Below, one piece after another: positions 676 through 42,819 of a stretch of DNA of 42,863 nucleotides (the stretch's first letter is position 1; each line of letters starts with the position of its first letter). Below the pieces are notes generated by a model, which saw nothing but the letters and a program-made list of their open reading frames with translations, made no database searches and was not told the DNA's origin. A program made the position numbers and the translations under genes. The DNA comes from a virus, in IMG/VR virus record IMGVR_UViG_3300036819_000170, positions 1 through 42,863 of that record. One strand, 5' to 3'.

Positions 676-711
676 CTTTACATAATATTCGTTATCGGAC
701 ATTGATGATAA
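676..711 (+). promoter_or_regulatory. putative early promoter and operator (motif copy R1)
   Basis: TAATAT at 683-688 is a reasonable -10. The block at 692-707, TTATCGGACATTGATG, begins where the transcript would start. The 26 bases at 686-711 are repeated exactly at 42737-42762, and related copies lie at 42820-42835 and, inverted, at 42587-42602. Within R1 the outer TTATC and GATAA form a dyad. The placement over the start site fits an operator that represses the early operon. No convincing -35 was found. Confidence 0.5.
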
Positions 712-4309: not shown

Positions 4310-4513
4310 GTGCACAAGGGAAATCCTGATGTCTTCACGCCCAAGGCCTATCGAGTGAATGCGCTCGTGGCCCAGGGCAAGAGTTTCGACGAGGCCTTGG
4401 ATATCGCCGACTCGGAATACCAGCATGACGGCATGCAGCTCCGCCGCGGCACAACCGATCTTGAAGCCGCTCTCTTCAACGGCCTCGATCAGATGGGCTC
4501 GGTGCAATTTTGA
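4310..4513 (+). CDS. hypothetical protein upstream of ParB-like gene
   Basis: 67 residues from a GTG start chosen because GGAGGTGA ends five bases before it. Helical, acidic, with a region VNALVAQGKSFDEALDIAD that looks like a short UBA/CUE-like or degradation-tag helix pair; no certain family. The stop overlaps the TTG start of the next gene (TTGA), so the two are probably translated together. Confidence 0.6.
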   Translation: MHKGNPDVFTPKAYRVNALVAQGKSFDEALDIADSEYQHDGMQLRRGTTDLEAALFNGLDQMGSVQF

Positions 4514-6183
4514 CAGCATCCCTCAAGCCGAAGCTGGTACAAAATGATTCTCAAACTCCCACGGTCTATCCCAGCGTGCATGTGGCGCTCGGCCTGATCG
4601 CGCCGTCGCCCACCAATCGCCGCGTTGAAGCCAGCGACGAACTGATCGCCAGCATCAAGGAAGATGGCGTCACCAGTGACATTCTGGTCCGTCCCGTACT
4701 GGCCACTGAAGCACATGTCGTCCTCGCCGGCCCCCAGGCGAAATTCTCTGCCGGGCAGCAAGTTTATGAAATTGTCTTTGGCGAGCGGCGTTACCGCGGC
4801 TCGATGGCAATTGGTCTCGAGACCGTGCCGGCAAAAATCCGCGAGCTTTCAGATATGGAAGCCTTGCGGCTGCAGATCGACGAAAACGAACAGCGCGAAA
4901 ATCTCAGCCCCATGGACCGCGCCGCGGCCTATGAGCATTTGCGCAAACAGTTCATCAGGGACCATGAAGGCGAGCGCGGCTATACCGACTCAAAATGTAT
5001 CCAGGACATCGCCGGCGACCGCGGCGTTGAGGCGCGCACGGTTTACCAGGTGCTGGCGCTCAACAAGCTTGAGTTATTCGTGCAGCACGCGCTGCGCAAT
5101 GGCGAGATGGAAGCCAGCCACGGATATGAGATTGCACGGCTGGAAGGCCCGCAGCAATTGCAGGTGCTGGCGTGGCTCCGGAAAGAAACGCAACACTCTA
5201 TGGGCGCCGTTCCCAGCGTCCGCCGGCTCAAGCGCGAGATCAGCGCATTCCAGATCGCCTGGGACGAGAAAAAACGCCAGGCCAGTCTGCCGTTGGATGG
5301 CGACGGCGACGAAGCGCAAACGTCTGCAGAAGAGCAGAAGCCTGCAGGAAAGTTTGAAGTGTATGAAAAGTCGGAACGAAAAGAAGCTCCGAAGACCAAG
5401 CCCCAGAACGCTGCTCAGATCAAAAAGCAGGAAGAAGAGGTCGCCCAAGAAATTGCTGCCAATCTCAAAAGGCAGCGCGAGGCCGAGCGCGCGCGCAAGA
5501 CAGAGAAGACGTATCGCGGTTTGTTCTTCACTGCCCTCGCATCCAAGGTCACTATTAATTCGCGCTTCCTTTCCCACGTCGTGCCTGCTTTGCTTCTAGA
5601 GCTATGGGATAACGGCAATGTCCCGTTCGAACCTTTCTGCCAGAATTTTCTGGGCTGGCCTGCGCCCAAAAATAGCTGGGGCTATGAGCATGACGAAGTG
5701 TTGGCGTTGAGCAAACGGCATACACGCAAATTTACTTCCAAGCTTCTGGCCGCGCTTATCATCACTCTCAACCTGGACGCGATCGATGAGCAACGCGTGG
5801 CCAAATATAACGGCGTCGATCCTAAAAAGCTCTACGCAAAAGCTAAAGTCGCAGTGAAAGAGGAAGAGCGCCAGGCCAAGCTGCCCAAAGTTCCCACCAC
5901 GCAGCGAGAGAAGCAGCTTCACTATGCCGTGCATGGTGACGATAAAAAATGGAACAAGATCCGCCGTCTCGGGGCCAGTGACGCTGAGCTTAAAGATGGC
6001 TTGGGCAAGATGTGGGGAGAGCATCAGGGCTTCGGCAGTAAGGAGTTTGGTCACATTGAGTGCAAAGGCGGTAAAGACCCTAGCATCGTTTTTGATTTCA
6101 AAAGGGATGATGTGTTGCGCGGATCTGCCCTCATTGAGCAAGTCCGGGATCTGCTGAGGATCCCAGAGAAGAAGGCTGCCTGA
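4510..6183 (+). CDS. ParB/RepB/Spo0J-like protein
   Basis: 557 residues from a TTG overlapping the preceding stop. The N-terminal 35-110 region shows the ParB core: a strand ending PSPTNRR, LIASIKEDGVTSDILVRPV, the signature GERRYRG, a strand with VPAKIREL, and then LQIDENEQRENLSPMDRAAAY (compare E-N-x-Q-R-x-x-L-x-P-x-E-x-A). An HTH (SKCIQDIAGDRGVEARTVYQVLAL) follows, then a charged coiled coil (about 270-330) and a C-terminal domain I do not know. No ParA is present. ParB domains bind CTP and load at palindromic sites; the GCAAACGTTTGC repeats are candidate sites. A role in partition, genome organisation or regulation are all open. Confidence 0.8.
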   Translation: MTASLKPKLVQNDSQTPTVYPSVHVALGLIAPSPTNRRVEASDELIASIKEDGVTSDILVRPVLATEAHVVLAGPQAKFSAGQQVYEIVFGERRYRGSMAIGLETVPAKIRELSDMEALRLQIDENEQRENLSPMDRAAAYEHLRKQFIRDHEGERGYTDSKCIQDIAGDRGVEARTVYQVLALNKLELFVQHALRNGEMEASHGYEIARLEGPQQLQVLAWLRKETQHSMGAVPSVRRLKREISAFQIAWDEKKRQASLPLDGDGDEAQTSAEEQKPAGKFEVYEKSERKEAPKTKPQNAAQIKKQEEEVAQEIAANLKRQREAERARKTEKTYRGLFFTALASKVTINSRFLSHVVPALLLELWDNGNVPFEPFCQNFLGWPAPKNSWGYEHDEVLALSKRHTRKFTSKLLAALIITLNLDAIDEQRVAKYNGVDPKKLYAKAKVAVKEEERQAKLPKVPTTQREKQLHYAVHGDDKKWNKIRRLGASDAELKDGLGKMWGEHQGFGSKEFGHIECKGGKDPSIVFDFKRDDVLRGSALIEQVRDLLRIPEKKAA

Positions 6184-25521: not shown

Positions 25522-25607
25522 GATGGCCCCATAAGAATTGAGAAACCTAGCAGGTTCTTCTCCTTCCACTGCTGGAAAGCCTGCGCATCTAGATCTGTTG
25601 CGTACAT
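25440..25607 (-). CDS. small overlapping gene
   Basis: 55 residues, MYATDLDAQAFQQWKEKNLL, with GGAGG four bases before ATG 25607 and a start inside the end of the upstream gene. Reads like a real protein (FSILMGPSCRGLW, RIAYPIGNYGRPFC) and has the best ribosome site of the region. It overlaps the gene at 24904-25521. Confidence 0.5.
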   Translation of the reverse strand: MYATDLDAQAFQQWKEKNLLGFSILMGPSCRGLWTRNLTRNRIAYPIGNYGRPFC

Positions 25608-26077
25608 ACGGCCTCCACAAATTCGGTGAAAGTGAAATCCAGAATCATGGTGCGCGCGCGGACCAGAATCTTTCCATCCACGCGATGGATGGAAATGACG
25701 CCGCCCGGCGCCACGATCTCCTGGCAAACGTTTGCGCCCGGCATCAGCCGCGCGATGGCCGCCTGGATTCCCTTTTGCGTGGTGATCACCACCGAAGGAA
25801 AGCCGTGAATCATGTAGCCGCAGATCTGATCCGGATCTTCCAGCCGCTCATCGGCTTCCGGGCAATGGTTCGCGGTGACGCAGTCCTGGAAGATAATCTC
25901 CGCTGTCTCAATGGCCGCGGCATGGGCCGTCGAAACGATCTGGCCGATCTTCTCAAAGCTTAAAAACTGTGCTGCAGCCTCCGCCCGTTCCCGGCCGCTG
26001 AGATCCAGCGGCGAGTCAAGGTCAGAGGATGCAGCACGAACAAGGTAGCCCAGCGGAGGTTTGTTGTAATCGATCAT
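25589..26077 (-). CDS. histidine-phosphatase-fold protein lacking catalytic histidines
   Basis: 162 residues. The order is that of SixA/phosphoglycerate-mutase-like phosphatases: strand with R-x-x (YLVRAASSD), LDLSGRERAEAAAQFL, then IVSTAHAAAIETAEIIFQDC (compare S-P-x-x-R-A-x-x-T-A), DERLE, and SVVITTQKGIQAAIARL where active members have a G-H-N-P loop. The first catalytic His (R-H-G) is Ala here (R14-A15-A16) and the second is absent. A pseudo-phosphatase, perhaps a structural or binding protein. It contains GCAAACGTTTGC at 25724. Confidence 0.65.
   Translation of the reverse strand: MIDYNKPPLGYLVRAASSDLDSPLDLSGRERAEAAAQFLSFEKIGQIVSTAHAAAIETAEIIFQDCVTANHCPEADERLEDPDQICGYMIHGFPSVVITTQKGIQAAIARLMPGANVCQEIVAPGGVISIHRVDGKILVRARTMILDFTFTEFVEAVCTQQI
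25724..25735. promoter_or_regulatory. GCAAACGTTTGC palindrome, copy 4 (intragenic)
   Basis: Perfect copy inside the histidine-phosphatase-like gene. Confidence 0.65.
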
Positions 26078-26803: not shown

Positions 26804-27793
26804 TTAGGCCGCGCTCACTTCGGCCTTGAGCCTGCGGAAGCCCTGGGTCGAGTTGGTGTTGGGACGGCCCACGACTCCGAGGAAATAGTCGTAAGAGATG
26901 ATCGTCTTGGTCTGCAGCGTGGGGTTGTCGACGGTCGGCGTGGTCAACGGCGTGACCATCACGGGGAATTTGGGGTTCTTGGGAACCTTGAAGCCCATGA
27001 TTTCGGAAGCGAACACCGCTTCCCTGCCCACCACAAACATGCCAAAGCCGGTCTTGCCGGACGAAGGATAGTTTGCGTACGTGGGCACCGTGCTGGTGCG
27101 GACCAGGCGCAATCCGCTCCACTCCAGGACCGTGTAGCTGGCGACCTGGCCGGACTCAAGCTGCTTCTGTCCGCTCTCACTGCGCTTCAGCGTGTCGGTG
27201 GCGCCGCCAGCGGTGTTGTCGCTGATGATGTCATACGAATGGAACGCGCTGCAGGCCGTGGTGTAGACTCCGCCATCGCGCGGGGGCACGTTGTTGGCGA
27301 CGAGCTGCGCTTCGATCCTGCGCAGGCTGGATGAAGTGGTGAATTCGTTGTCACCCAGGTTGATCTGGGCGGTGGCGTCGGCGTTGGCGATGGCGTCAAA
27401 GGCCGCGAAGGCGATGAAGTTGGAGGTCAGCGCTGCCTGGTAACCCAGGTTGCGGCTGGCGTCGATGGCAACGTCGCTCACGAAGGTTGCGTCCACCACG
27501 TTGGAAATACCCATCCAGCCGGCAAACTCGTCGGCAAACACCACGCTGGTGACCTGCGAGAGTCCCTGCGGAGCGGGCGGAACGCCTTCTGACACCGGGC
27601 CGGTGGCTGCGCCGAAAGGCTGTTGGCCATAGAGCTGATTGGTGCGGCCGCTGCGCCGCGCCATGGGCTTGAAATCGCACAGCATCTCAATGCCAGGCGT
27701 GTTGGCCTGCCATTCCAGAACGGCGGTGCGGTCATAGGCAATCTGCGGAAAGCCCTTGAGGCCTCCGGATTGTACTGAAGGAGGAATGATCAT
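26804..27793 (-). CDS. major capsid protein
   Basis: 329 residues from ATG 27793 with GGAGA eight bases upstream (an earlier start lacks one). Follows the scaffold gene and precedes the decoration candidate. Sequence pattern (IEMLCDFKPMARRSGRTNQL, then a long helix/loop, VVGREAVFASEIMGFKVPKN, PNTNSTQGFRRLKAEV) fits the HK97-fold capsid core. The most abundant virion protein in this scheme; likely client of the phage GroEL. Confidence 0.8.
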   Translation of the reverse strand: MIIPPSVQSGGLKGFPQIAYDRTAVLEWQANTPGIEMLCDFKPMARRSGRTNQLYGQQPFGAATGPVSEGVPPAPQGLSQVTSVVFADEFAGWMGISNVVDATFVSDVAIDASRNLGYQAALTSNFIAFAAFDAIANADATAQINLGDNEFTTSSSLRRIEAQLVANNVPPRDGGVYTTACSAFHSYDIISDNTAGGATDTLKRSESGQKQLESGQVASYTVLEWSGLRLVRTSTVPTYANYPSSGKTGFGMFVVGREAVFASEIMGFKVPKNPKFPVMVTPLTTPTVDNPTLQTKTIISYDYFLGVVGRPNTNSTQGFRRLKAEVSAA

Positions 27794-27895
27794 TGTGAAA
27801 TCTCCAATGGAGTTGCGGCCCACGCTTCAGAAGCGCTGCCGGGGGGAGATTTGTGTTTTCGGGGGCTGGCGTTACCGGATTTGTTGCTAAAAAAC

Positions 27896-29264: not shown

Positions 29265-31361
29265 TTAAACGGCCCCGCCGCCGCCCGGCATGGCGCCCGG
29301 GGTTTCCGCGTGCTTGAAGACCTCTTCCTGCACCTTCAGCAGCGCGCGGTTTTCCGCCTGGTTTTCCTGTGTCTGGATCTTGCCCTGCGTCTGCGCGGAG
29401 ACCAGCGCCAGTTTGTCGGTCAGTCCGCCGCCTTTTTGCTGCTGTTGCGCGGCCAGGCGCTTTTTGTCGTCGTCGTCCATCGGCTTTACGATTTCCTGCT
29501 GGTACGGGAAGCCGGTGGAGCTGAACAGCGCGCCGATCAGCGCCTTGTAATCGATCTTCATGCCCTGCGTGGCCAGCTGCTCGGTCAAGCCGGGCTGCTG
29601 CAGGATGCTCTGGATGTAGCCGAGTGATTGATTCAGTGAATTACGCGCCTGCAGCCGCGCGCCCGCCGAGATCGTCACCTTGTAGCTGGCGTTGATCATG
29701 TCGATGGGGTCGGACTTCATGGCCGTGCCCAGCGTATCGTTCAACATCTGCCGCAACTGCGAGGGCGTGAGGCGCTTGTTGTTTTCCACGCAGAATTCCA
29801 GGAACGGGATCAGCATCAGGTCGCAGAACTGGTCGATCAGGTCCTGCATCTTCATGCCTTCGCCTTGTGCAAGCGTTTGCACGCCCGCGCCGGTCCGCAT
29901 GTCGCCCGTGGCGCCGGGGTTTGAGCCCTGTATGCCCGCGCCCGCGCCGCTGATGCCCGAGGCCCAGCTCTTGACCTGGGCCACCACCGCCAGCGGCTCC
30001 TGGCCGTTGGTGGAATTGCGCGTCATCGGCTTCAGGCCTTCCGGGCCGCTGGTCTTAAAGACCTTGCCGGGGAAGATCCACGCGGCCTGCCCGGTATTGT
30101 TCATGCCCTGCTCGGTCGTATAGGTCCCGGCCAGGTTTAAATTCAGGTCGTCAAAAAAGTAATTGACCACGCCCTGGGCAATGCGCTGGAAATCTGAGAG
30201 CCACATCCCCATGCCCCATCCGAATCCGGAATCAGGGGCCTCGCGGAAGACAAAACTAAGCATGTCCTGTCCGTCATGCGGGCAGTTCATGATGCAGGCC
30301 TGGTTTTCGAGGATCCAGCACTTGCGGTCGTTGGTGAAGTACTCGAAGACCTCAAACGGCTGCGCCAGCGGGTCCAGCGTGGAAGACTGGCTCATCCATT
30401 CCGGATACGCCTGCTGCGCGGAAGTCGTCCGGCGGTCCAGCACCGACGTGGAAGATCCCGTCGTCGTGTCCAGGACGTTCTGCCCGGCCGTATCTTTCAT
30501 CGGCGTGGTGAGCTTGATCAGCTCCTCGCGCGTGGGGATGTTGTAACCGTCGCAATCGCGGAACTTGTCCAGGTCGTAGGCGTTTAAATAAAGCAGCCGG
30601 CCGCGCCAGCGTGCCGTGCGAATGTTGCCGCCACGCCAGTCCGGCGCAGCCCGCACCCGGCGCAGAGGCACATGCTCGTAAACCGGGTGATTGTAGGTGT
30701 ACGACTCGATATATTCTTCGTAATCGTCGTCGCTTCCGTGGACCGTCGCCGTGGAGCCTTCAGAATTCAGCGCAATCGACTTGGATTGCGTCTTCGGCCG
30801 AAGCTTGCGCCGCTTGACGGTCCGCTGTTCCCAGGCACGCAGGCCCACGCCGGTGCCGAGCAGCAGGCAGTCATACGCGGTCTTGCGAATTTCCTGTTTA
30901 AACGTCGATCCAAAAGGCGCCGCCGTCTTGAGTTGCGCTTCAATCAGCGACTGCAACGCGCTGGCCACGTCCATGGTGGAGGAGACGGTCTCCTCGATCT
31001 TGAACGGCTCGTATCCGGAAAAAAGCTGCTGCTGGAAAACCGAGAGCGATGAATAAAAATTCTCAGCGAGCAAAGGTATGCCCAGGCTGGAGCGATATTG
31101 GTCAGATCCGCGCCACTTCACCGGCTCAACAAAGGCGCGCAGCACCACCGTGGTCATGTCCCACATGTAGGCAAAGCCGCGGCCGGCCATGAATCCCTCA
31201 GAGAGCATGCGATTGCCGATGGCTTCTTTGGCCATCGACAGATTCGAGCGGTCCTGGTCGGGAAAGCCGACTTCATCCTGGCTGAACGGCTGGCTGACTT
31301 CGCTCGTCAGCTCGCGCACGCCGGGGATATCGCTTAATCGAATTTGATTGCCTGATGACAT
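29265..31361 (-). CDS. portal protein
   Basis: 698 residues, the size of P22/N4-type portals. Features: N-terminal helices with LENFYSS-type stretch (LAENFYSSLSVFQQQLFSGY), a core with LLLGTGVGLRAWEQRTVKRR and VRAAPDWRGGNIRTARWRGR, the wing/stem region (DFQRIAQGVVNYFFDDLNLN), a C-terminal helical barrel rich in glutamine (RLAAQQQQKGGGLTDKLALV). Directly after the large terminase gene. Forms the dodecameric DNA gate. Contains a one-mismatch palindrome (GCAAGCGTTTGC, 29869-29880). Confidence 0.88.
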   Translation of the reverse strand: MSSGNQIRLSDIPGVRELTSEVSQPFSQDEVGFPDQDRSNLSMAKEAIGNRMLSEGFMAGRGFAYMWDMTTVVLRAFVEPVKWRGSDQYRSSLGIPLLAENFYSSLSVFQQQLFSGYEPFKIEETVSSTMDVASALQSLIEAQLKTAAPFGSTFKQEIRKTAYDCLLLGTGVGLRAWEQRTVKRRKLRPKTQSKSIALNSEGSTATVHGSDDDYEEYIESYTYNHPVYEHVPLRRVRAAPDWRGGNIRTARWRGRLLYLNAYDLDKFRDCDGYNIPTREELIKLTTPMKDTAGQNVLDTTTGSSTSVLDRRTTSAQQAYPEWMSQSSTLDPLAQPFEVFEYFTNDRKCWILENQACIMNCPHDGQDMLSFVFREAPDSGFGWGMGMWLSDFQRIAQGVVNYFFDDLNLNLAGTYTTEQGMNNTGQAAWIFPGKVFKTSGPEGLKPMTRNSTNGQEPLAVVAQVKSWASGISGAGAGIQGSNPGATGDMRTGAGVQTLAQGEGMKMQDLIDQFCDLMLIPFLEFCVENNKRLTPSQLRQMLNDTLGTAMKSDPIDMINASYKVTISAGARLQARNSLNQSLGYIQSILQQPGLTEQLATQGMKIDYKALIGALFSSTGFPYQQEIVKPMDDDDKKRLAAQQQQKGGGLTDKLALVSAQTQGKIQTQENQAENRALLKVQEEVFKHAETPGAMPGGGGAV

Positions 31362-31367
31362 TCGCTT

Positions 31368-33158
31368 TTATCCGCTCACCAATCCGCTTCCCGTTCCACC
31401 GCCGCCGAATTGCTCTGCCTCTTGCTGTGCCAGGCGCTGCGCATGCAATTGCCGTATGTACGTCAGCGGATCGCTTTGCGTGGGCGCCGGAATCAGAGCC
31501 GCGCCGTGCGGAGCTTCAACGGCATGTCCCAGGCAATCGCCGTAATCGTCGTGATGCGGGATCTTTGGCCACTTCTTCAGCTGGTTGCACAGCTTGTCGT
31601 AATCCTTCATGCCGGCAAACAGCCACAGCTTGCGATCAATGAGCCAGCTCAGTGACGAGCCGATCCGCAGCGTCTTGGCGTTGGGCTGCTTGTCCAGCTT
31701 TTTCCACTCGACGGGCAATTGCAGCACTCCAACCGCCGCGGCCTTGCGCATCAGAATGTTGTTGTAAGCTTCCCAGCCGAGAAAACGTTCCAGCCAAACG
31801 GCCTGCGGACGGTGCTGCATGATCGCCGCCAGAATGTTCGTGCAGGCCTGGTCAGAATCCCAGTTGCCGGCCAGACAGTCATAAACCCACAGCGTGCCCA
31901 GCCAGACTTTCACCAGGTAAAGAACGCTCAGGTCGCGCTTGTCGTCGCCGATGTAACTCAGGTCGCCCACCATGAACGTGCCCGATTCCGGCGGGATCAC
32001 GTTCAGATGGAAAAATGTTTGCCGCGCCAGCAGCTCCGGCGTGAAACGCTGCTGCTCTTTTGAGATCGGCGAGTTCTCGTACTGGTTGGCAAAATATTCC
32101 GCGCCTTTTTCCCGCCGTTCCGACTCCAGCATCTCGACCTTGAAGCCGATTTGCCGGCCGTCTTTTGTGATGGCCAGCGGGAATAAAACTTGTTTCTCGC
32201 CTGAATCGACAAAGCACTTGCACTCGCATGCCTGCTTGGTCTCTCTATCGATCCACCGGCAGGGTGGGCTGCTGAAATTCAGGTCTGAGTCGTGCCGGAT
32301 GTCCGGATGCCGGCAGGTTTTGCAAAACTTGATCCAGCATGATTTGATCGAGATCTTCCAGACGGTGTCTCCGGTCTCTTTTGTTTCCTGCTGCGCCGCT
32401 TCAATGATTCGCTCGTACGTATCGCCAAAGGCGTAGCGCGTTCCGGTGACGAACAGAAAGCCCGCAGGCTCCAGCAGCGGGCCGATGGCGCAATAGTCGT
32501 CCCAGACGCCCTGCAGCAGCTTGGCGGATTTGTAATTCTGTTCATTGACCAGGTCATCGCAAAAGATGACATCAAAATGCGAACTGGCCTTTACGCTCTT
32601 ACCCGACGAAATGCAGATCGTGGGCTCCGGAAAATCCATCGTCCGGTTTGGAACCGTGAACTCTTCCGATGATCCCGCCAGCTTCTTGCCTGGCGCGGGA
32701 CAAAAATCCGGATACAGTTGCCGGAATTTATCGGACGGGTTATCAAAAACCTTTTTCGTGCGCGCGAGCTGGCGCTTGGCCAGCTCTTTGGATCCCGAGA
32801 GAAACAGGATCCTGATATTCGGATAGTTCAGGATGAGCTGGACTATCTCAATGGTCACGCCGGAGGTTTTGAAGTGACCGCGCGGCCACAGCACCATCCG
32901 TTTTTTTGTCTTCGGATCGAGCAGGTACAGTGCTTTTCTCTGCTCAGGGTCTTTTTGTAGGAACTCTTTGAAGAGCGCCGCATGCGGGTTGACCTGGAAA
33001 TCTCCCAGCGCTCCGCCAATGACTTCAGTCGCCAGGAAGAGATGATCGATCTGTCCTTTGAGCCGCTGTTCCATCCAGGCTTGTTGCGCCGAAGGAGAAA
33101 GCTGATCAAATGATTCCCGGTATTTCTCCGGCAACACTGCCGGCGTGAAGACGGCCAT
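31368..33158 (-). CDS. terL: terminase large subunit
   Basis: 596 residues. Walker A WPRGHFKTSG (91-100), Walker B FDVIFCDD (195-202) with following acidic residues, and an RNase-H nuclease with D399 in MVGDLSYIGDDKRDL and D in HHDDYGDCLGHAVE near 555. Between ATPase and nuclease, an inserted cysteine cluster (274, 279, 282, 300, 311, 313, 315: CWIKFCKTC ... CECKC) is unusual and probably binds zinc. Packages DNA with the portal next door. Confidence 0.93.
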   Translation of the reverse strand: MAVFTPAVLPEKYRESFDQLSPSAQQAWMEQRLKGQIDHLFLATEVIGGALGDFQVNPHAALFKEFLQKDPEQRKALYLLDPKTKKRMVLWPRGHFKTSGVTIEIVQLILNYPNIRILFLSGSKELAKRQLARTKKVFDNPSDKFRQLYPDFCPAPGKKLAGSSEEFTVPNRTMDFPEPTICISSGKSVKASSHFDVIFCDDLVNEQNYKSAKLLQGVWDDYCAIGPLLEPAGFLFVTGTRYAFGDTYERIIEAAQQETKETGDTVWKISIKSCWIKFCKTCRHPDIRHDSDLNFSSPPCRWIDRETKQACECKCFVDSGEKQVLFPLAITKDGRQIGFKVEMLESERREKGAEYFANQYENSPISKEQQRFTPELLARQTFFHLNVIPPESGTFMVGDLSYIGDDKRDLSVLYLVKVWLGTLWVYDCLAGNWDSDQACTNILAAIMQHRPQAVWLERFLGWEAYNNILMRKAAAVGVLQLPVEWKKLDKQPNAKTLRIGSSLSWLIDRKLWLFAGMKDYDKLCNQLKKWPKIPHHDDYGDCLGHAVEAPHGAALIPAPTQSDPLTYIRQLHAQRLAQQEAEQFGGGGTGSGLVSG

Positions 33159-34830: not shown

Positions 34831-35166
34831 TTAAGTTAAGTGCGCTGGTATAGGGGGAAGAGCAACGGTCTTGCCGGCTAAAGCATGAGTGCTGTCGACA
34901 CAGAATTGAAGTTCCCCAGCCGTCAAGTGGTAATGGCAAATGAACGAAACGGGATCACCATTTGCGTCTCTGTTCCATTCTCCCGTCCATTGCCCATTAA
35001 TAAAGACTCGCTTCACTCCGGAATGCTTGAAGCTTGGGGTGAACGTCGGCTTCTCTAAATTTCCATCAAAGGTCCAGCTGTCAGGAAGCTTGTGCATCTG
35101 CTCGCATCCAGGGCACCAATGACCGAAGCCGCCTTCGATACTCCGCAATGTGCTGCTTACTCTCAT
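34831..35166 (-). CDS. DUF6527-like phage protein
   Basis: 111 residues, ATG overlapping the previous stop (ATGA). FGHWCPGCEQMHKL, then WTFDGNLEKPTFTPSFKH, CHYHLTAGELQFCVDSTHAL, AGKTVALPPIP: C-x2-C, H, PTF.PS and CH....G...FC.DS.HAL are the phage DUF6527 signature, a metal-binding small domain of unknown role. Common in phage genomes. Confidence 0.75.
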   Translation of the reverse strand: MRVSSTLRSIEGGFGHWCPGCEQMHKLPDSWTFDGNLEKPTFTPSFKHSGVKRVFINGQWTGEWNRDANGDPVSFICHYHLTAGELQFCVDSTHALAGKTVALPPIPAHLT

Positions 35167-35690
35167 AACTTTTCAAAATCCGGCATCAGGCTCCGCGCCG
35201 GCTGTTCTTTGGCAACTTTCTTCACGGCTTCAGTCTCGGCCGCGCGCTGCACGCGCCGTTTTACTGCCTGGCGATTGTTGGCCATGCCGTCCACAATCTT
35301 CTTTTCATAGTGCGGCGCCCAGGGCTGGCGATACTCGCGCACATCGGCCAGCAGCTTGATCGCGTCCATCTGCTCCCGGCTGATCTTCCCGCGCAGGATC
35401 ATCTTCGCCACCATCTTGCAAAAGGCGTCTTTCGGATCGTCGCCAAAATGCAGCGAGAGAATCATCACCATGCCCGCCGACTGCAGGATCCGCACGCCCA
35501 TCACGCGCACGCTCTCCGGTGTCTTCGCGTTGGGATAGCTCGCCATCACCGCGGCCCGCGCGTCATAGTTGTTACAGATGTAACATGCGAGAAATTTCCG
35601 CTGGTTCTCCGGCAGCAGCGCATATTCAGGGAGCCGCTTCAGCTCCTCGATCGGAACGCGCCCTTTACCTGGCTGCATTCTTGCGCTCAT
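35163..35690 (-). CDS. terminase small subunit candidate
   Basis: 175 residues. LPENQRKFLACYICNNYDAR, AAVMASYPNAKTPESVRVMG, VRIL resembles the HTH start of small terminases (Q..F...Y....A..AA..AGY). A middle helical region and a basic C-terminus (RQAVKRRVQRAAETEAVKKV) follow. It lies upstream of the large subunit in the same operon. Would bind the packaging site and recruit the large subunit; the site itself is not identified. Confidence 0.65.
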   Translation of the reverse strand: MSARMQPGKGRVPIEELKRLPEYALLPENQRKFLACYICNNYDARAAVMASYPNAKTPESVRVMGVRILQSAGMVMILSLHFGDDPKDAFCKMVAKMILRGKISREQMDAIKLLADVREYRQPWAPHYEKKIVDGMANNRQAVKRRVQRAAETEAVKKVAKEQPARSLMPDFEKL

Positions 35691-35955
35691 CCAAGCGCCG
35701 CAGTAACTCGCCCGCTATATCTTCGTCCGGGGCGTATTTCCAGGGATTAGGCCCCGCTGCAGAGCGAATCATCATGAGGGCGCTCTCTGTCCACTCGGCC
35801 GCAGCGTGCCATCCTATTGCCATGGCTCCAGGCGTAGTAAGGAAGCGCAGCGCATCTTCAAGGCCGCCGCCAACTGGAACAGCGTCCTGTCCGGCTTTGT
35901 GCGCGATCAGCTTTCTCTGGTTCGGGCCTATTACTCCGATCATTCTTCCAGCCAT
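35665..35955 (-). CDS. hypothetical protein
   Basis: 96 residues from ATG 35955 (84-92 if a later ATG at 35943, overlapping the groES stop as ATGA, is used). MIGVIGPNQRKLIAHKAGQD, ALRFLTTPGAMAIGWHAAAE, helical C-terminus with EDIAGELLRRLDERK. It overlaps both groES and the terminase small subunit gene. No family recognised. Confidence 0.6.
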   Translation of the reverse strand: MAGRMIGVIGPNQRKLIAHKAGQDAVPVGGGLEDALRFLTTPGAMAIGWHAAAEWTESALMMIRSAAGPNPWKYAPDEDIAGELLRRLDERKNAAR

Positions 35956-36227
35956 CCCAGTATCTCGCCCTCGCGTATCGAGAGATATTGCTCCCCGCTG
36001 ATCTGCACCTTGGTGCCGGAGTGCGGGCCAAAAATCACCACCATGCCGGGCTTGACCTTCATCGGAATGATCTCGCCGTTCTCTTTGCGATAGCCATCGC
36101 CCGCGGAGATCACCGATCCCATCAAATAATCGTCCCGGGCATTGTCCGGGAGCACGAAGTCTCCCATCTCTTTCTGCCCTTCCAGCACCTTGACCAGCAC
36201 GCGTTCATAGAGAGGAATAAATTTCAT
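35940..36227 (-). CDS. groES: GroES co-chaperonin
   Basis: 95 residues of full GroES length: IPLYERVLVKVLEGQKEMGD, FVLPDNARDDYLMGSVISAG, then a mobile-loop equivalent, KVKPGMVVIFGPHSGTKVQI, SIREGEILGWLEE. The pattern P-L-x-D/E-R-V-L-V and the GD-type strand with V-x-x-G-D..V.F.....G..V are clear. It is coupled by ATGA to the 105-residue gene that separates it from groEL. Host operons run groES-groEL; here the order is reversed. Confidence 0.92.
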   Translation of the reverse strand: MKFIPLYERVLVKVLEGQKEMGDFVLPDNARDDYLMGSVISAGDGYRKENGEIIPMKVKPGMVVIFGPHSGTKVQISGEQYLSIREGEILGWLEE

Positions 36228-36541
36228 AGGCGGTGCTCCTCCTCTTCGGCGCGAGCGCAGAGCGCTTCCAGCGATAGATGAGGATTAAAGATTGCCTTGC
36301 CGCGGAACTTGAACGCCTCACGCGCTTCGTGCTCGTACCAGGCCAACACAGCGGCCATGGCAGTCTGCACGACTTCGCCATCCGTCATGTGATCGGATAA
36401 TATCCATTTGCGGCCGGTCCACTCAGCGTCGGCGATCTGAAGATAAAGCCGGCCATCCTGCTGGCCAATTTGGATCTTCAAATTGGTACAACTGCATTCC
36501 AAAAGAAGATCTACGATTTCTTCCCGCCTATTTGGCTTCAT
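36224..36541 (-). CDS. hypothetical protein between groEL and groES
   Basis: 105 residues, start inside the last codons of groEL with GGAGG seven bases upstream. MKPNRREEIVDLLLECSCTN, then KIQIGQQDGRLYLQIADAEW, DHMTDGEVVQTAMAAVLAWY, FNPHLSLEALCARAEEEE. Alpha/beta, unknown. Embedded in the chaperonin pair, it may be a client-specific adaptor, which is speculation. Confidence 0.6.
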   Translation of the reverse strand: MKPNRREEIVDLLLECSCTNLKIQIGQQDGRLYLQIADAEWTGRKWILSDHMTDGEVVQTAMAAVLAWYEHEAREAFKFRGKAIFNPHLSLEALCARAEEEEHRL

Positions 36542-38147
36542 GGAAGTCCTCCGCGATCACTGCGTCCGAGTTGAGGATCGTCATCGCCACGGAGACCGCA
36601 TTTCTGATTGCTTCTTTCACAACCTTCACCGGATCAATGATCCCGGCCTGGATCATGTTTACGTATCCATCCTGCGCGGCGTTGTAGCCGGTCCATTCGT
36701 AAGGGCCGCCGGTAATGCCTTGCATATCGACAACGCGCTCCACGATGGCCTGCCCAGACCTGCCGGCGTTCTCTGCAATCTGGCGCATCGGCTCAAAGCA
36801 TGCATCGCGGACCATCTGTCCGCCCGCGCAAACGTTTGCAACGCCGTGCGGTCCGCGAATTCTCAATCCGGCGATGACCAGCGCCAGGCCTCCGCCCGGC
36901 ACAATGCCGGAATCCGCCGCAGCCTTGGTCGCGAACATGGCGTCTTCCACGCGGTCTTTCTTCTCGCGCATCTCCGCTTCCGTCGCGCCGCCCACTTTAA
37001 TCACAGCCACGCCGCCAATCAGTCCGGAAAGCCGTTGCTCGGTCAGCCGTATCTGCGCCGGGTCCTGCTGTTGTTCCTTCATCAGCGCAATGCGTTCCCG
37101 GATCTGCTCCGCGCGGCCTTCAATCACTGTCTTCTCGCCCTCGCCGCCGGTCACGATGGTCGTATCTTCGTTGATCACCACGCGCCGGGCGCGGCCAAAA
37201 TATTCCGCGGTAATGTTCTCCAGCTTCATTCCCTGCTCGTCTGTGATCGCCTGGGCGCCCGTGAGCGCAGCCAGGTCTTTTAAAATCTCTCGCCGGCGTT
37301 CTCCATAGCCGGGTGCGCGGATCGCGCAGCATTGGAATCCAAATTGAACTTTGTTCTGTACCAGGAACGCCAGAACTTCAGGCTCATAGTCGCCGGCAAC
37401 GATCACAAGCGGCCGGTCGATCTTTTTTGCCAGGCGCGCGACGGCCAGCATTGCCTGCGCCGATCCCAGGCGACCTTCGTGCAGCAGAAATAATGGTTTG
37501 TCCAGCGAACACTGCACACGATCAATCTGATTCATGAAGTAATGCGACCGCATGCCCTCAGGCAGCTGCATGCCGTCTGTAACTTCTAAAGTTGTGTCGA
37601 GTGAAAGCGAAGGCTCGCAAGCGATGACGCCGTCTTTGCCCACGCGGTTCACCGCTTCCACCACCAGCTTGCCGATCGCGGTATCACCATTCGATGAAAT
37701 CACCGCAACCTGCTCCAGCATGTCGCCCTCGGCCGGCAGCGCCATCGCGTCCAGCGCGTGCAATACCTGGTCGAGCGCCAGCCGGGCGCCGCGCTCCAGA
37801 TCGTCCGGAGTGTGCTTGGCTGCCATCTGCTGTATGCCGGCATGTACCAGGAACTGAGCCAGCAGCGTGGCCGTGGTTGTGCCGTCGCCGGCTTTCTGCA
37901 CGGTCTTCTGCGCGGCCTCGCGGATAAGATCGCATCCCATCTGCTCAATCGGATCAGAACAGTTCACATGGTCCGCGACGGTCACGCCGTCCTTGGTCGC
38001 GCGTGGCGACTCATTGAACGCGCGGCGTCCAATCACCACCAGCCGGCCTTTGGGACCAAGCGTGGCTTTCACTGTGTTGGCCAGGAGATCGATGCCGCGA
38101 AGCAACGCCTCGCGCGACTCCCGCCCGTGCTTGATAATTTTGTTCAT
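36528..38147 (-). CDS. groEL: GroEL chaperonin
   Basis: 539 residues, close to the usual length. ATP site GPKGR, KDGVTVADHV, GDGTTTAT (about 85-92); the catalytic acid region AGGLALV/GGGLAL; helix ATEAEMREKKDRVEDAMFAT. It lacks the C-terminal GGM tail found in bacterial GroEL (ends EDFHEAK). Probably a functional single-ring or double-ring chaperonin for the phage capsid or tail proteins. ATG overlaps the previous stop. A GCAAACGTTTGC copy lies at 36828. Confidence 0.95.
   Translation of the reverse strand: MNKIIKHGRESREALLRGIDLLANTVKATLGPKGRLVVIGRRAFNESPRATKDGVTVADHVNCSDPIEQMGCDLIREAAQKTVQKAGDGTTTATLLAQFLVHAGIQQMAAKHTPDDLERGARLALDQVLHALDAMALPAEGDMLEQVAVISSNGDTAIGKLVVEAVNRVGKDGVIACEPSLSLDTTLEVTDGMQLPEGMRSHYFMNQIDRVQCSLDKPLFLLHEGRLGSAQAMLAVARLAKKIDRPLVIVAGDYEPEVLAFLVQNKVQFGFQCCAIRAPGYGERRREILKDLAALTGAQAITDEQGMKLENITAEYFGRARRVVINEDTTIVTGGEGEKTVIEGRAEQIRERIALMKEQQQDPAQIRLTEQRLSGLIGGVAVIKVGGATEAEMREKKDRVEDAMFATKAAADSGIVPGGGLALVIAGLRIRGPHGVANVCAGGQMVRDACFEPMRQIAENAGRSGQAIVERVVDMQGITGGPYEWTGYNAAQDGYVNMIQAGIIDPVKVVKEAIRNAVSVAMTILNSDAVIAEDFHEAK
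36828..36839. promoter_or_regulatory. GCAAACGTTTGC palindrome, copy 6 (inside groEL)
   Basis: Perfect copy within the 3' third of groEL, encoding part of VANVCAGG on the minus strand. Confidence 0.65.
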
Positions 38148-38530: not shown

Positions 38531-38881
38531 CTAGGCCTCGCCGGCCAAAGCCAGTGCGTGTATGCCACTCACCGATGCGTTTGCGGCGTCCGCCATCTTT
38601 TTCGCGAGCGCGGCCTTTTGGATTTCTTCTTCCGCCAGCATGTCCTTGAGCTCTTTCGGCAGATCGAGCATGCCAAGCGAGATAATGTTGGCCGCGCACG
38701 AATCCTTGCACGCGGATTTCTGCACCGGGAAAATCTGGTCATGCACCACGAACGTGCGCACGAGAGTGATCCAGCGCTCAAGCTGCGGGATCTCTGAGGG
38801 AGCAACGTTCTTTTCTTTATGGAAATCCTGCTGCGTATCGCAGTAGTCGCAGGTGCGTCTTAAAATCTGGTGTTCTGCCAT
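38531..38881 (-). CDS. zinc-motif helical protein
   Basis: 116 residues, AGAGGAG before ATG 38881. MAEHQILRRTCDYCDTQQDF: CDYC, with further cysteines CKDSC (about 58-62), could hold zinc. A helical remainder (LPKELKDMLAEEEIQKAALA) is coiled-coil-like. Function unknown. Confidence 0.6.
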   Translation of the reverse strand: MAEHQILRRTCDYCDTQQDFHKEKNVAPSEIPQLERWITLVRTFVVHDQIFPVQKSACKDSCAANIISLGMLDLPKELKDMLAEEEIQKAALAKKMADAANASVSGIHALALAGEA

Positions 38882-39756: not shown

Positions 39757-40803
39757 TCACGCCTGATTTTTTCCACCAGATTGTGACCGGTTGGGAGTGT
39801 CAACCGCCGGTCGCGAGGCCCTTGGGGGGCGAGACCCCCGGCCCCCATGCTTCAACAAAGGATCCCCCATAGCCCGCTGCTGCTGCTCTTGCGCGCCCGT
39901 TTGCGTGGACGAAGCCTGCAGGCCTGCGGCATCGCTGCCTGCGTCTGTGTGGGAATTTGTGTGGGGTTTTTCAGGAAACTCCGAGCCATCTCCAACGCCA
40001 TGGCTGGCGCTGTGCGCGACTGCTGTCGCACTCGTATTCTTCTTTGCCAGGCTCTGCTTCAGCGCGTCCATGATGTCAATCACAGGCGCAAGGCGTGTAG
40101 GCTGAGCGCTTGTTGCAAGCGTGTTGCCTTCAATCTTTGCAGCGATTAACCGCTGCACGTTCTCACGATACGAATCTTTGTACTTGTCCAGCTCAAATGC
40201 CGCGCGCATCGATTTAATCAGCCGCACAGCCATCCGCAGCTCCATCTCCTCGATCTCGCTGCAATCCGTCCTAAACTCTTCCACCTGGCGAATCTCGTCG
40301 GCATAATAAACCGTGTGCAGCACCAGACCATGTTCGCCCGGGCGCAAAATCACAATATGCTCTTGCCCATGCATCGCTATCTTCGCCACGCCCACATGCC
40401 CGCTATCGCGCAGCGCCTTGAATAGCAGCGCGTACGCTCGCTCGCCGGCTCCCACGCCTGGCGCAACGTAATAAGAGCTGTCCAGGTAAACCGGATTGAT
40501 TTCCTTCGCCTTCACAAATTCCAGGATTTCCACCGTCTTCGCGCTCTTCGGCTGGATCTCCTCCAGCTCAGCGTCCGTGATGACCACGTAGTGGTCCTTC
40601 TCGTACTCGTAGCCCTTCACAATCTCGCTGCGATCAACGGCCTTGTCTTCGAGCTGGCACATCAAAACCTGTTTCATGCGCGAATTGTCGGCGGCATGCA
40701 GCATGTTGAAGCTGATCGCCTCTCTGCGCGCAGCGCTAGTCAGCTTGATCGGCACGGTGACCAGGCCAAAACTCAAATGACCTTTCCAGACTGTGCTAGC
40801 CAC
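39757..40803 (-). CDS. ku: bacterial-type Ku protein
   Basis: 348 residues from GTG 40803 (GGAGGA seven bases upstream; earlier starts run into another gene). ASTVWKGHLSFGLVTVPIKL, SFNMLHAADNSRMKQVLMCQ, VKGYEYEKDHYVVITDAELE, YALLFKALRDSGHVGVAKIA, GLVLHTVYYADEIR are the Ku-core hallmarks, running to about 260. A 90-residue Ser/Thr/Gln tail follows. Ku homodimers bind double-strand ends and recruit LigD. No ligase or LigD domain is encoded in the window. Mycobacteriophages Corndog and Omega use Ku to join ends with host LigD, a model for this gene. Confidence 0.94.
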   Translation of the reverse strand: MASTVWKGHLSFGLVTVPIKLTSAARREAISFNMLHAADNSRMKQVLMCQLEDKAVDRSEIVKGYEYEKDHYVVITDAELEEIQPKSAKTVEILEFVKAKEINPVYLDSSYYVAPGVGAGERAYALLFKALRDSGHVGVAKIAMHGQEHIVILRPGEHGLVLHTVYYADEIRQVEEFRTDCSEIEEMELRMAVRLIKSMRAAFELDKYKDSYRENVQRLIAAKIEGNTLATSAQPTRLAPVIDIMDALKQSLAKKNTSATAVAHSASHGVGDGSEFPEKPHTNSHTDAGSDAAGLQASSTQTGAQEQQQRAMGDPLLKHGGRGSRPPRASRPAVDTPNRSQSGGKNQA

Positions 40804-41095
40804 GATTGAGTCCTCCGGCAAAAACAATTTGTGGACTCTGAGTCTTTTGCAGATCTTCGGCGATTCCCCGCCACTGATCACGCTCCGCTGCAATTTGCCG
40901 CACGAAATCCGCCATCACTTCTGCAAGCTCGATGAAGCCGCCACTGTAAAGCATCACTTTTGTATCGCCATTGTGGTGCCATCCAGCATGGATACAAAAT
41001 GCGCGGGCCTGCTCTTCCAGCGTTGGAGGCTGCAGTTTGTATGTGCCGGATAGGGTTAAATTGAGATCGTCAACGCCGTTAATTTTTTCGCTCAT
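40796..41095 (-). CDS. hypothetical protein between nusG-like gene and ku
   Basis: 99 residues from ATG 41095 (MSEKINGVDDLNLTLSGTYK). C-terminal helices (FIELAEVMADFVRQIAAERD). It overlaps the nusG-like stop by ATGA and the ku start by eight bases. Helical, slightly acidic. No family recognised; the tight coupling suggests shared timing with both neighbours. Confidence 0.6.
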   Translation of the reverse strand: MSEKINGVDDLNLTLSGTYKLQPPTLEEQARAFCIHAGWHHNGDTKVMLYSGGFIELAEVMADFVRQIAAERDQWRGIAEDLQKTQSPQIVFAGGLNRG

Positions 41096-41664
41096 ATCGC
41101 AGTCACCGCGTCCGCATCCACTTCCACGCTCATAGCTCTGCCAATCGTGCGGACTTCCACCACCACGCGGCATTTGTTTTTCTCGCGTACCAGAAAGCCT
41201 TCACGGCCCTGCAGCGGTCCGCGCGTCACCTTCACGCGGTCACCCACGTGGATAAGCTGGTGCGGCCGCGGATCATTACCGTTATGTGTTGCTGATTTCA
41301 ATTGCTCGATCTCCGCATCTTCCAGCGCTTCCGGTGTTCCATTCGCGCCCACCAGGTAAACCACGCCCGGCGCCGCGACAACGTTTAAAAGATTTTCCAG
41401 CGTCCGCGGGATCCTCACGAATACATAGCCCGGAAACAACGGCAGCAGCAGCTCAGTCTTGCGATCGCTCCATTGCCGCGTGTCTTTGTACTGCGGCAGA
41501 AACGCTTCCACCTGGCGCGCGGCCATGTGCTCCATCACGCGGCTCTCATGCCGCGATCGCACATAAGCAGCAAACCATTGCCGCTGACGGGTCGCCACGC
41601 CCACTACTCTCAAGCGACAGTCGTTGTCTGAGTCCAGCTCGTAGCTGTAAAACTCGTCGCTCAT
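41092..41664 (-). CDS. NusG/RfaH-like transcription factor
   Basis: 190 residues. NGN domain about 25-120: RQWFAAYVRSRHESRVMEHM, VEAFLPQYKDTRQWSDRKTE, LLLPLFPGYVFVRIPRTLEN, AAPGVVYLVGANGTPEALED. KOW domain about 140-185: VGDRVKVTRGPLQGREGFLV. Overall order and spacing match the specialised paralogues (RfaH/UpxY/LoaP), not the cellular NusG. Those load at defined DNA/RNA signals and suppress termination. As an early gene of a 30-kb operon it is a natural antiterminator. ATG overlaps the previous stop (TGATG). Confidence 0.9.
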   Translation of the reverse strand: MSDEFYSYELDSDNDCRLRVVGVATRQRQWFAAYVRSRHESRVMEHMAARQVEAFLPQYKDTRQWSDRKTELLLPLFPGYVFVRIPRTLENLLNVVAAPGVVYLVGANGTPEALEDAEIEQLKSATHNGNDPRPHQLIHVGDRVKVTRGPLQGREGFLVREKNKCRVVVEVRTIGRAMSVEVDADAVTAI

Positions 41665-42716: not shown

Positions 42717-42742
42717 CCCCATAGCGTTTTACTCGCTATTCG

Positions 42743-42758
42743 TTATCGGACATTGATG
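42743..42758 (+). promoter_or_regulatory. 16-bp motif copy R2
   Basis: TTATCGGACATTGATG, part of a 26-bp exact repeat (42737-42762) of 686-711. Confidence 0.7.
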
Positions 42759-42819
42759 ATAAGCCCGAATTGGCGCAGGTTTTAAGTGTTTAATGGCTCT
42801 ATTTGTGCGATTTCAGAGA

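Follow-up and report, generated by a model that had tools for sequence, protein, structure and literature searches.

A phage that encodes both a GroEL ring and a GroES lid raises the question of where the pair came from and which proteins it would fold. Chaperonins were first discovered through phage assembly. We analyzed such a pair in a 42,863-base IMG/VR virus contig, hereafter the window, from a phage known from metagenomes only.

The window encodes a diverged GroEL and GroES

The locus consists of three overlapping genes on the minus strand, transcribed in the order groEL, 105-aa gene, groES. The groEL gene (36528..38147) encodes a group I chaperonin of 539 aa that ends in ...VIAEDFHEAK and lacks the GGM tail. 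It overlaps the 105-aa gene (36224..36541) by 14 nt, and this gene in turn overlaps groES (35940..36227, 95 aa) by 4 nt (ATGA). Shine-Dalgarno-like sequences were found before the 105-aa gene (GGAGGA) and before groES (AGGAGG). A consensus promoter scan of the chaperonin region gave matches not above those in shuffled sequence. A sequence-only reading of the window had described a groEL without the GGM tail, a 105-residue gene and a groES, all overlapping, and this description was confirmed by the coordinates and by comparisons with Pfam, PHROGs, NCBIfam and the PDB.

The window GroEL matched Pfam Cpn60 over its whole length with 186.8 bits (cut-off 34.3) and passed the NCBIfam GroEL subfamily NF000592 (530.1 bits, cut-off 397). 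It remained below the NCBIfam equivalog TIGR02348, which marks orthologue-level GroEL (527.6 vs 582.1 bits), which makes it a diverged homologue and not a GroEL of the standard kind. GroES likewise matched Pfam Cpn10 over its whole length (76.2 bits, cut-off 21.1) and fell short of the NCBIfam GroES cut-offs (78.7 vs 133). The PDB comparisons confirmed both proteins as whole-length.

The pair is found throughout a phage lineage, always with groEL first

Membership of the lineage was decided on terminase, portal and capsid, without use of the chaperonin. In the first set, which consists of the window and seven other contigs and spans 27.8-96.7 kb, groEL and groES were present in all eight. Scanning more widely with the capsid brought in another 25 contigs; GroEL was present in 16 of them and GroES in the same 16, in each case as groEL followed by groES on one strand. 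Combined, 24 lineage contigs carry groEL or groES, and each of them had both, adjacent and with groEL leading. Two pairs of these contigs look near-identical (G157/G181 and G176/G180), so that ~22 of the 24 are independent, and in two contigs groEL is cut by the contig end. The pair was present in every lineage contig of at least 48.9 kb (11/11). Nine related contigs of 22-45 kb had neither gene and are probably fragments.

As controls we took 131 loci from outside the lineage in which the two genes are adjacent; all 131 ran groES-groEL and none was reversed. They comprised 93 bacterial loci (80 + 13, with a few possibly shared between these two sets), 35 further loci from IMG/VR and three from a phage collection. 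The bacterial order on which the sequence-only reading had relied was thus seen in each of the 93 bacterial loci, and the reversal that it had pointed out is real, but it is a trait of the whole lineage rather than the quirk of one phage. The lineage does not resemble the EL/OBP type, a ring without a partner GroES gene, since groES adjoins groEL in 24/24 contigs, nor the gp31 type, a lid that works with host GroEL only, since a phage groEL is present in every contig that has groES.

The pair heads the virion-assembly genes

In the window the chaperonin trio is directly upstream of terminase, portal and capsid genes, all on the minus strand. These are the terminase large subunit (31368..33158; phrog_38; 78% and 69% identical to those of the relatives G001 and G002), a SU10-like portal of the podovirus type (29265..31361; PF23899, phrog_332) and a major capsid protein (MCP) of 339 aa (26804..27823; phrog_1357). 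The order groEL-groES-TerL-portal-MCP was the same in all eight lineage genomes. Between groES and TerL lies a 175-aa gene (35163..35690, minus strand) that is terminase small subunit-like judging only by its position and appearance; searches of Pfam and PHROG found no match for it. A gene of this kind followed groES in seven of the eight genomes and was not detected in G030. Gene order places the chaperonin within the virion-assembly block, and the pair is an old core part of this block in an uncultured phage family. A histidine-phosphatase-like gene (25589-26077, minus strand) was also noted inside the structural block.

On the other side of groEL, a conserved neighbour (38531..38881, minus strand) encodes a 116-aa protein with a zinc-type CxxC...CxxxC pattern, and such a gene was present upstream of groEL in six of the eight genomes. 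Its AF2 model found no match in the PDB. We regard this protein as a better candidate for a chaperonin partner than the product of the 105-aa gene.

The 105-aa gene is probably optional cargo

The sequence-only reading had proposed the middle gene as a possible chaperonin adaptor. Its overlap with both neighbours means that it is co-translated with groEL and groES, which would suit such a role. Its distribution, however, argued against it. Among the eight lineage genomes only the window has the gene: in G002 and G029 the slot is empty and groES directly follows groEL, G030 has a 166-nt gap without the gene, and in G001 and G032 other small ORFs occupy the slot. The protein belongs to the phrog_1540 family (E 2.8e-18) and is 45-47% identical to counterparts on contigs L052-L055. 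Other family members occur in Caulobacter, Rhizobium and Microbacterium phages; in phages Paso and phiCbK no chaperonin genes were found near the phrog_1540 member, and GroES was absent from both records. An AF2 model of the 105-aa protein was of moderate quality (pLDDT 75) and found no match in the PDB. We rejected the adaptor on conservation and consider it very unlikely; the gene is probably an optional cargo gene.

groEL and groES are inherited together with the virion genes

If the pair had recently been picked up from a host, or if the contig were an assembly chimera, near-identity with a host chromosomal groEL and its flanking genes would be expected, and the sequence-only reading had named this as what would overturn it. 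The evidence pointed the other way. The nearest cellular GroEL in a GTDB scan was only 43% identical. In the GroEL tree the window and its seven relatives formed one clade with 100% support, on a long stem among bacterial group I GroELs and apart from the other sampled phage GroELs. The same block was found in independent contigs of other samples, and the reversed order did not occur in any of the 93 bacterial loci that have the pair. At the sequence level, pick-up or chimera was excluded on these grounds, and we put its probability close to nil.

Across the eight genomes, pairwise GroEL identity correlated with that of TerL (r 0.94) and of the portal (r 0.96), and a deep split was common to the TerL, portal, MCP and GroEL trees with 97-100% support. 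The tree of GroES, which is short and fast-evolving, disagreed moderately at one branch. The dN/dS values of groEL and groES (0.10-0.27) were comparable to those of TerL and MCP. The two genes are intact, evolve under purifying selection and are co-inherited with terminase, portal and capsid.

The binding groove and allosteric contacts are altered, the nucleotide site is intact

Window GroEL was 40.7% identical to E. coli GroEL, and the alignment indicated that the ATP-binding and catalytic residues T30, G32, K51, D52, D87, T89-T91, D398, G415 and D495 are all kept. A few nucleotide-site residues vary in the other lineage GroELs, mainly in the large-genome branch. Changes were seen lineage-wide in the apical domain at sites that are near-invariant in bacteria (Y199 to M/F/L and V264 to Q/K/Y/G/N), and at a further near-invariant site L237 was replaced by A/M in four lineage GroELs. 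R197, D83 and E409, known to form salt bridges in GroEL allostery, were mostly replaced in the lineage, and the inter-ring positions 434, 461, 463 and 464 were altered in window GroEL. The substrate/GroES-binding groove and the allosteric salt bridges thus appear changed, as expected for a private GroEL/GroES pair. From these substitutions we infer that phage GroEL partners its own GroES with altered ring cooperativity, and perhaps as single rings.

When aligned with E. coli GroES, window GroES retained the hydrophobic residues of the mobile loop, with FVL at the position of IVL and a loop shorter by one residue. It also retained the roof segment. This segment was deleted from GroES of the 59-97-kb branch, G032, G036 and G037 (L110, L108 and L109), an observation that covers the alignment of these three. 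Roof loops are likewise missing from T4 gp31, the lid that serves to fold the T4 capsid protein gp23 (PMC6318259); in this respect gp31 resembles the lids of this branch and differs from window GroES.

The divergence of the apical groove and of the inter-ring positions would also be consistent with a GroEL that is no longer a folding machine and has been put to another use, such as acting as a decoy for, or blocking, the host chaperonin or a defence system. Such a protein would need neither an intact nucleotide site nor a lid that is inherited with it and conserves its mobile loop, and we consider this explanation extremely improbable.

A probable role in folding virion proteins

We think it probable that the genes encode a core chaperonin-lid pair that folds virion proteins, the clients being presumed. 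The genes that head the virion-assembly block would supply the phage with folding machinery of its own, a group I GroEL ring and a GroES lid to go with it. Phage proteins in a non-native state, with virion proteins such as that of the capsid as the likeliest, would bind the ring; upon ATP binding the phage GroES would cap it, and the client would fold and then be released. We infer ring assembly, pairing with the phage's own GroES and not that of the host, and virion proteins as clients. MCP is the leading candidate client, a guess suggested by the parallel with the roof loss of gp31 together with the position of the genes. A phage chaperonin tuned to virion proteins had been suggested from the sequence; the 43% identity, the co-inheritance and the clade bear out a genuine phage chaperonin, while the tuning is a conjecture that fits the place of the genes in the block.

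Group I chaperonins usually have many clients, and those of phage GroEL are conjectural, which would agree with a general proteostasis or host-takeover chaperonin that, in the infected cell, supplements or replaces host GroESL for many proteins and has no special tie to virion proteins. The fixed place at the head of the virion block in all eight genomes and a divergence in step with TerL and portal count against this alternative, which we regard as unlikely. Folding of virion proteins remains our preferred reading. A more far-reaching version of it is that the pair is private, essential and virion-dedicated in the whole podovirus family, with groove, salt bridges and inter-ring contacts rewired, with its own GroES as the only partner and possibly with a single ring, and that the roofless lid of the large-genome branch enlarges the chamber for capsid folding, in parallel to T4 gp31. 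We offer this version only tentatively and hold it to be somewhat doubtful.

Genome size and the nearest cultured relative

The closest relative, G001 (40,403 bases), was colinear with the window and circularly permuted, and it spans the window's break point. Since G001 reads through the window ends and its own ends carry an identical 123-nt stretch, we took it as complete at ~40.3 kb, which supports the window as a near-complete genome. A 35-nt direct repeat was also seen near both ends of the window (677-711 and 42728-42762; 89% identical, 26 nt exact). For the viral GroELs of Marine 2017, gene order reportedly follows GroEL phylogeny and the carrier genomes are said to be > 70 kb; our lineage, by comparison, includes this complete smaller genome.

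The SU10-like portal suggests a short-tailed, podovirus-like phage. Comparison of portals turned up a single cultured relative, the Tunturiibacter phage Tunturi_3, a podovirus of an acidobacterium, with TerL, portal and MCP homologous to those of the lineage. Unlike the lineage, it had no GroEL in its record, and GroES was not found in the two parts searched. The virion proteins of this family thus do not always need a chaperonin of their own, and setting Tunturi_3 beside the lineage offers a natural way to ask which of them depend on a private chaperonin and how the GroEL/GroES interface is re-tuned. This one cultured relative is a weak hint at an acidobacterial host, whereas the homologues of the 105-aa protein are in Caulobacter and Rhizobium phages instead.

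Comparison with known chaperonin systems

GroEL is no rarity among phages, with matches in 253 phage records, although a few of these look like bacterial contigs, and we therefore do not count both genes in a phage as novel by itself. The sequence-only reading had called both together unusual for a phage of about 43 kb; it needs the correction that phages with both GroEL and GroES were already on record (PMC7185714, citing Marine 2017). What is new, as far as we checked, is a lineage of podovirus-like phages whose core genes include a reversed groEL-groES pair, set beside the virion genes and tied to the virion module, in genomes down to ~40 kb.

Like our lineage, the GroELs of Marine 2017 (virioplankton) and of soil viruses come from uncultured viruses, and for the soil viral GroELs both transcripts and peptides have been observed (PMC8390657). 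In its genome of 160 kb, Flavobacterium phage immuto carries both genes side by side, as the lineage does, but in the order groES-groEL, in a larger genome and on another branch of the GroEL tree. The rings of phiEL (gp146) and OBP (gp246) are GroEL-like with no co-chaperonin known, that of EL being 22% identical to GroEL (PMC7185714, PMC5934643), whereas lineage GroEL always comes with GroES. T4 gp31 is a GroES-type phage lid for virion folding that uses host GroEL, while the lineage has its own. Compared to the E. coli groES-groEL operon, GroEL and GroES are homologous over their whole length and have the same nucleotide-site residues, but the phage order is reversed, the apical groove, salt bridges and inter-ring positions are changed and the GGM tail is absent.

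Elsewhere in the tree, phage GroELs seem to have been acquired repeatedly, with four Vibrio phage GroELs beside gammaproteobacterial ones and Bacteroides and Flavobacterium phage GroELs in one group with a Bacteroidota GroEL. Other genes of the window included a Ku-type DNA end-binding protein (39757-40893, minus strand; Pfam Ku, 165 bits), also present in G001 (51% identity), a ParB-like protein (4510-6183, plus strand) and, near the start of the minus-strand block, a NusG-like transcription antiterminator (41092-41664, minus strand) that is conserved in G001 and G002.
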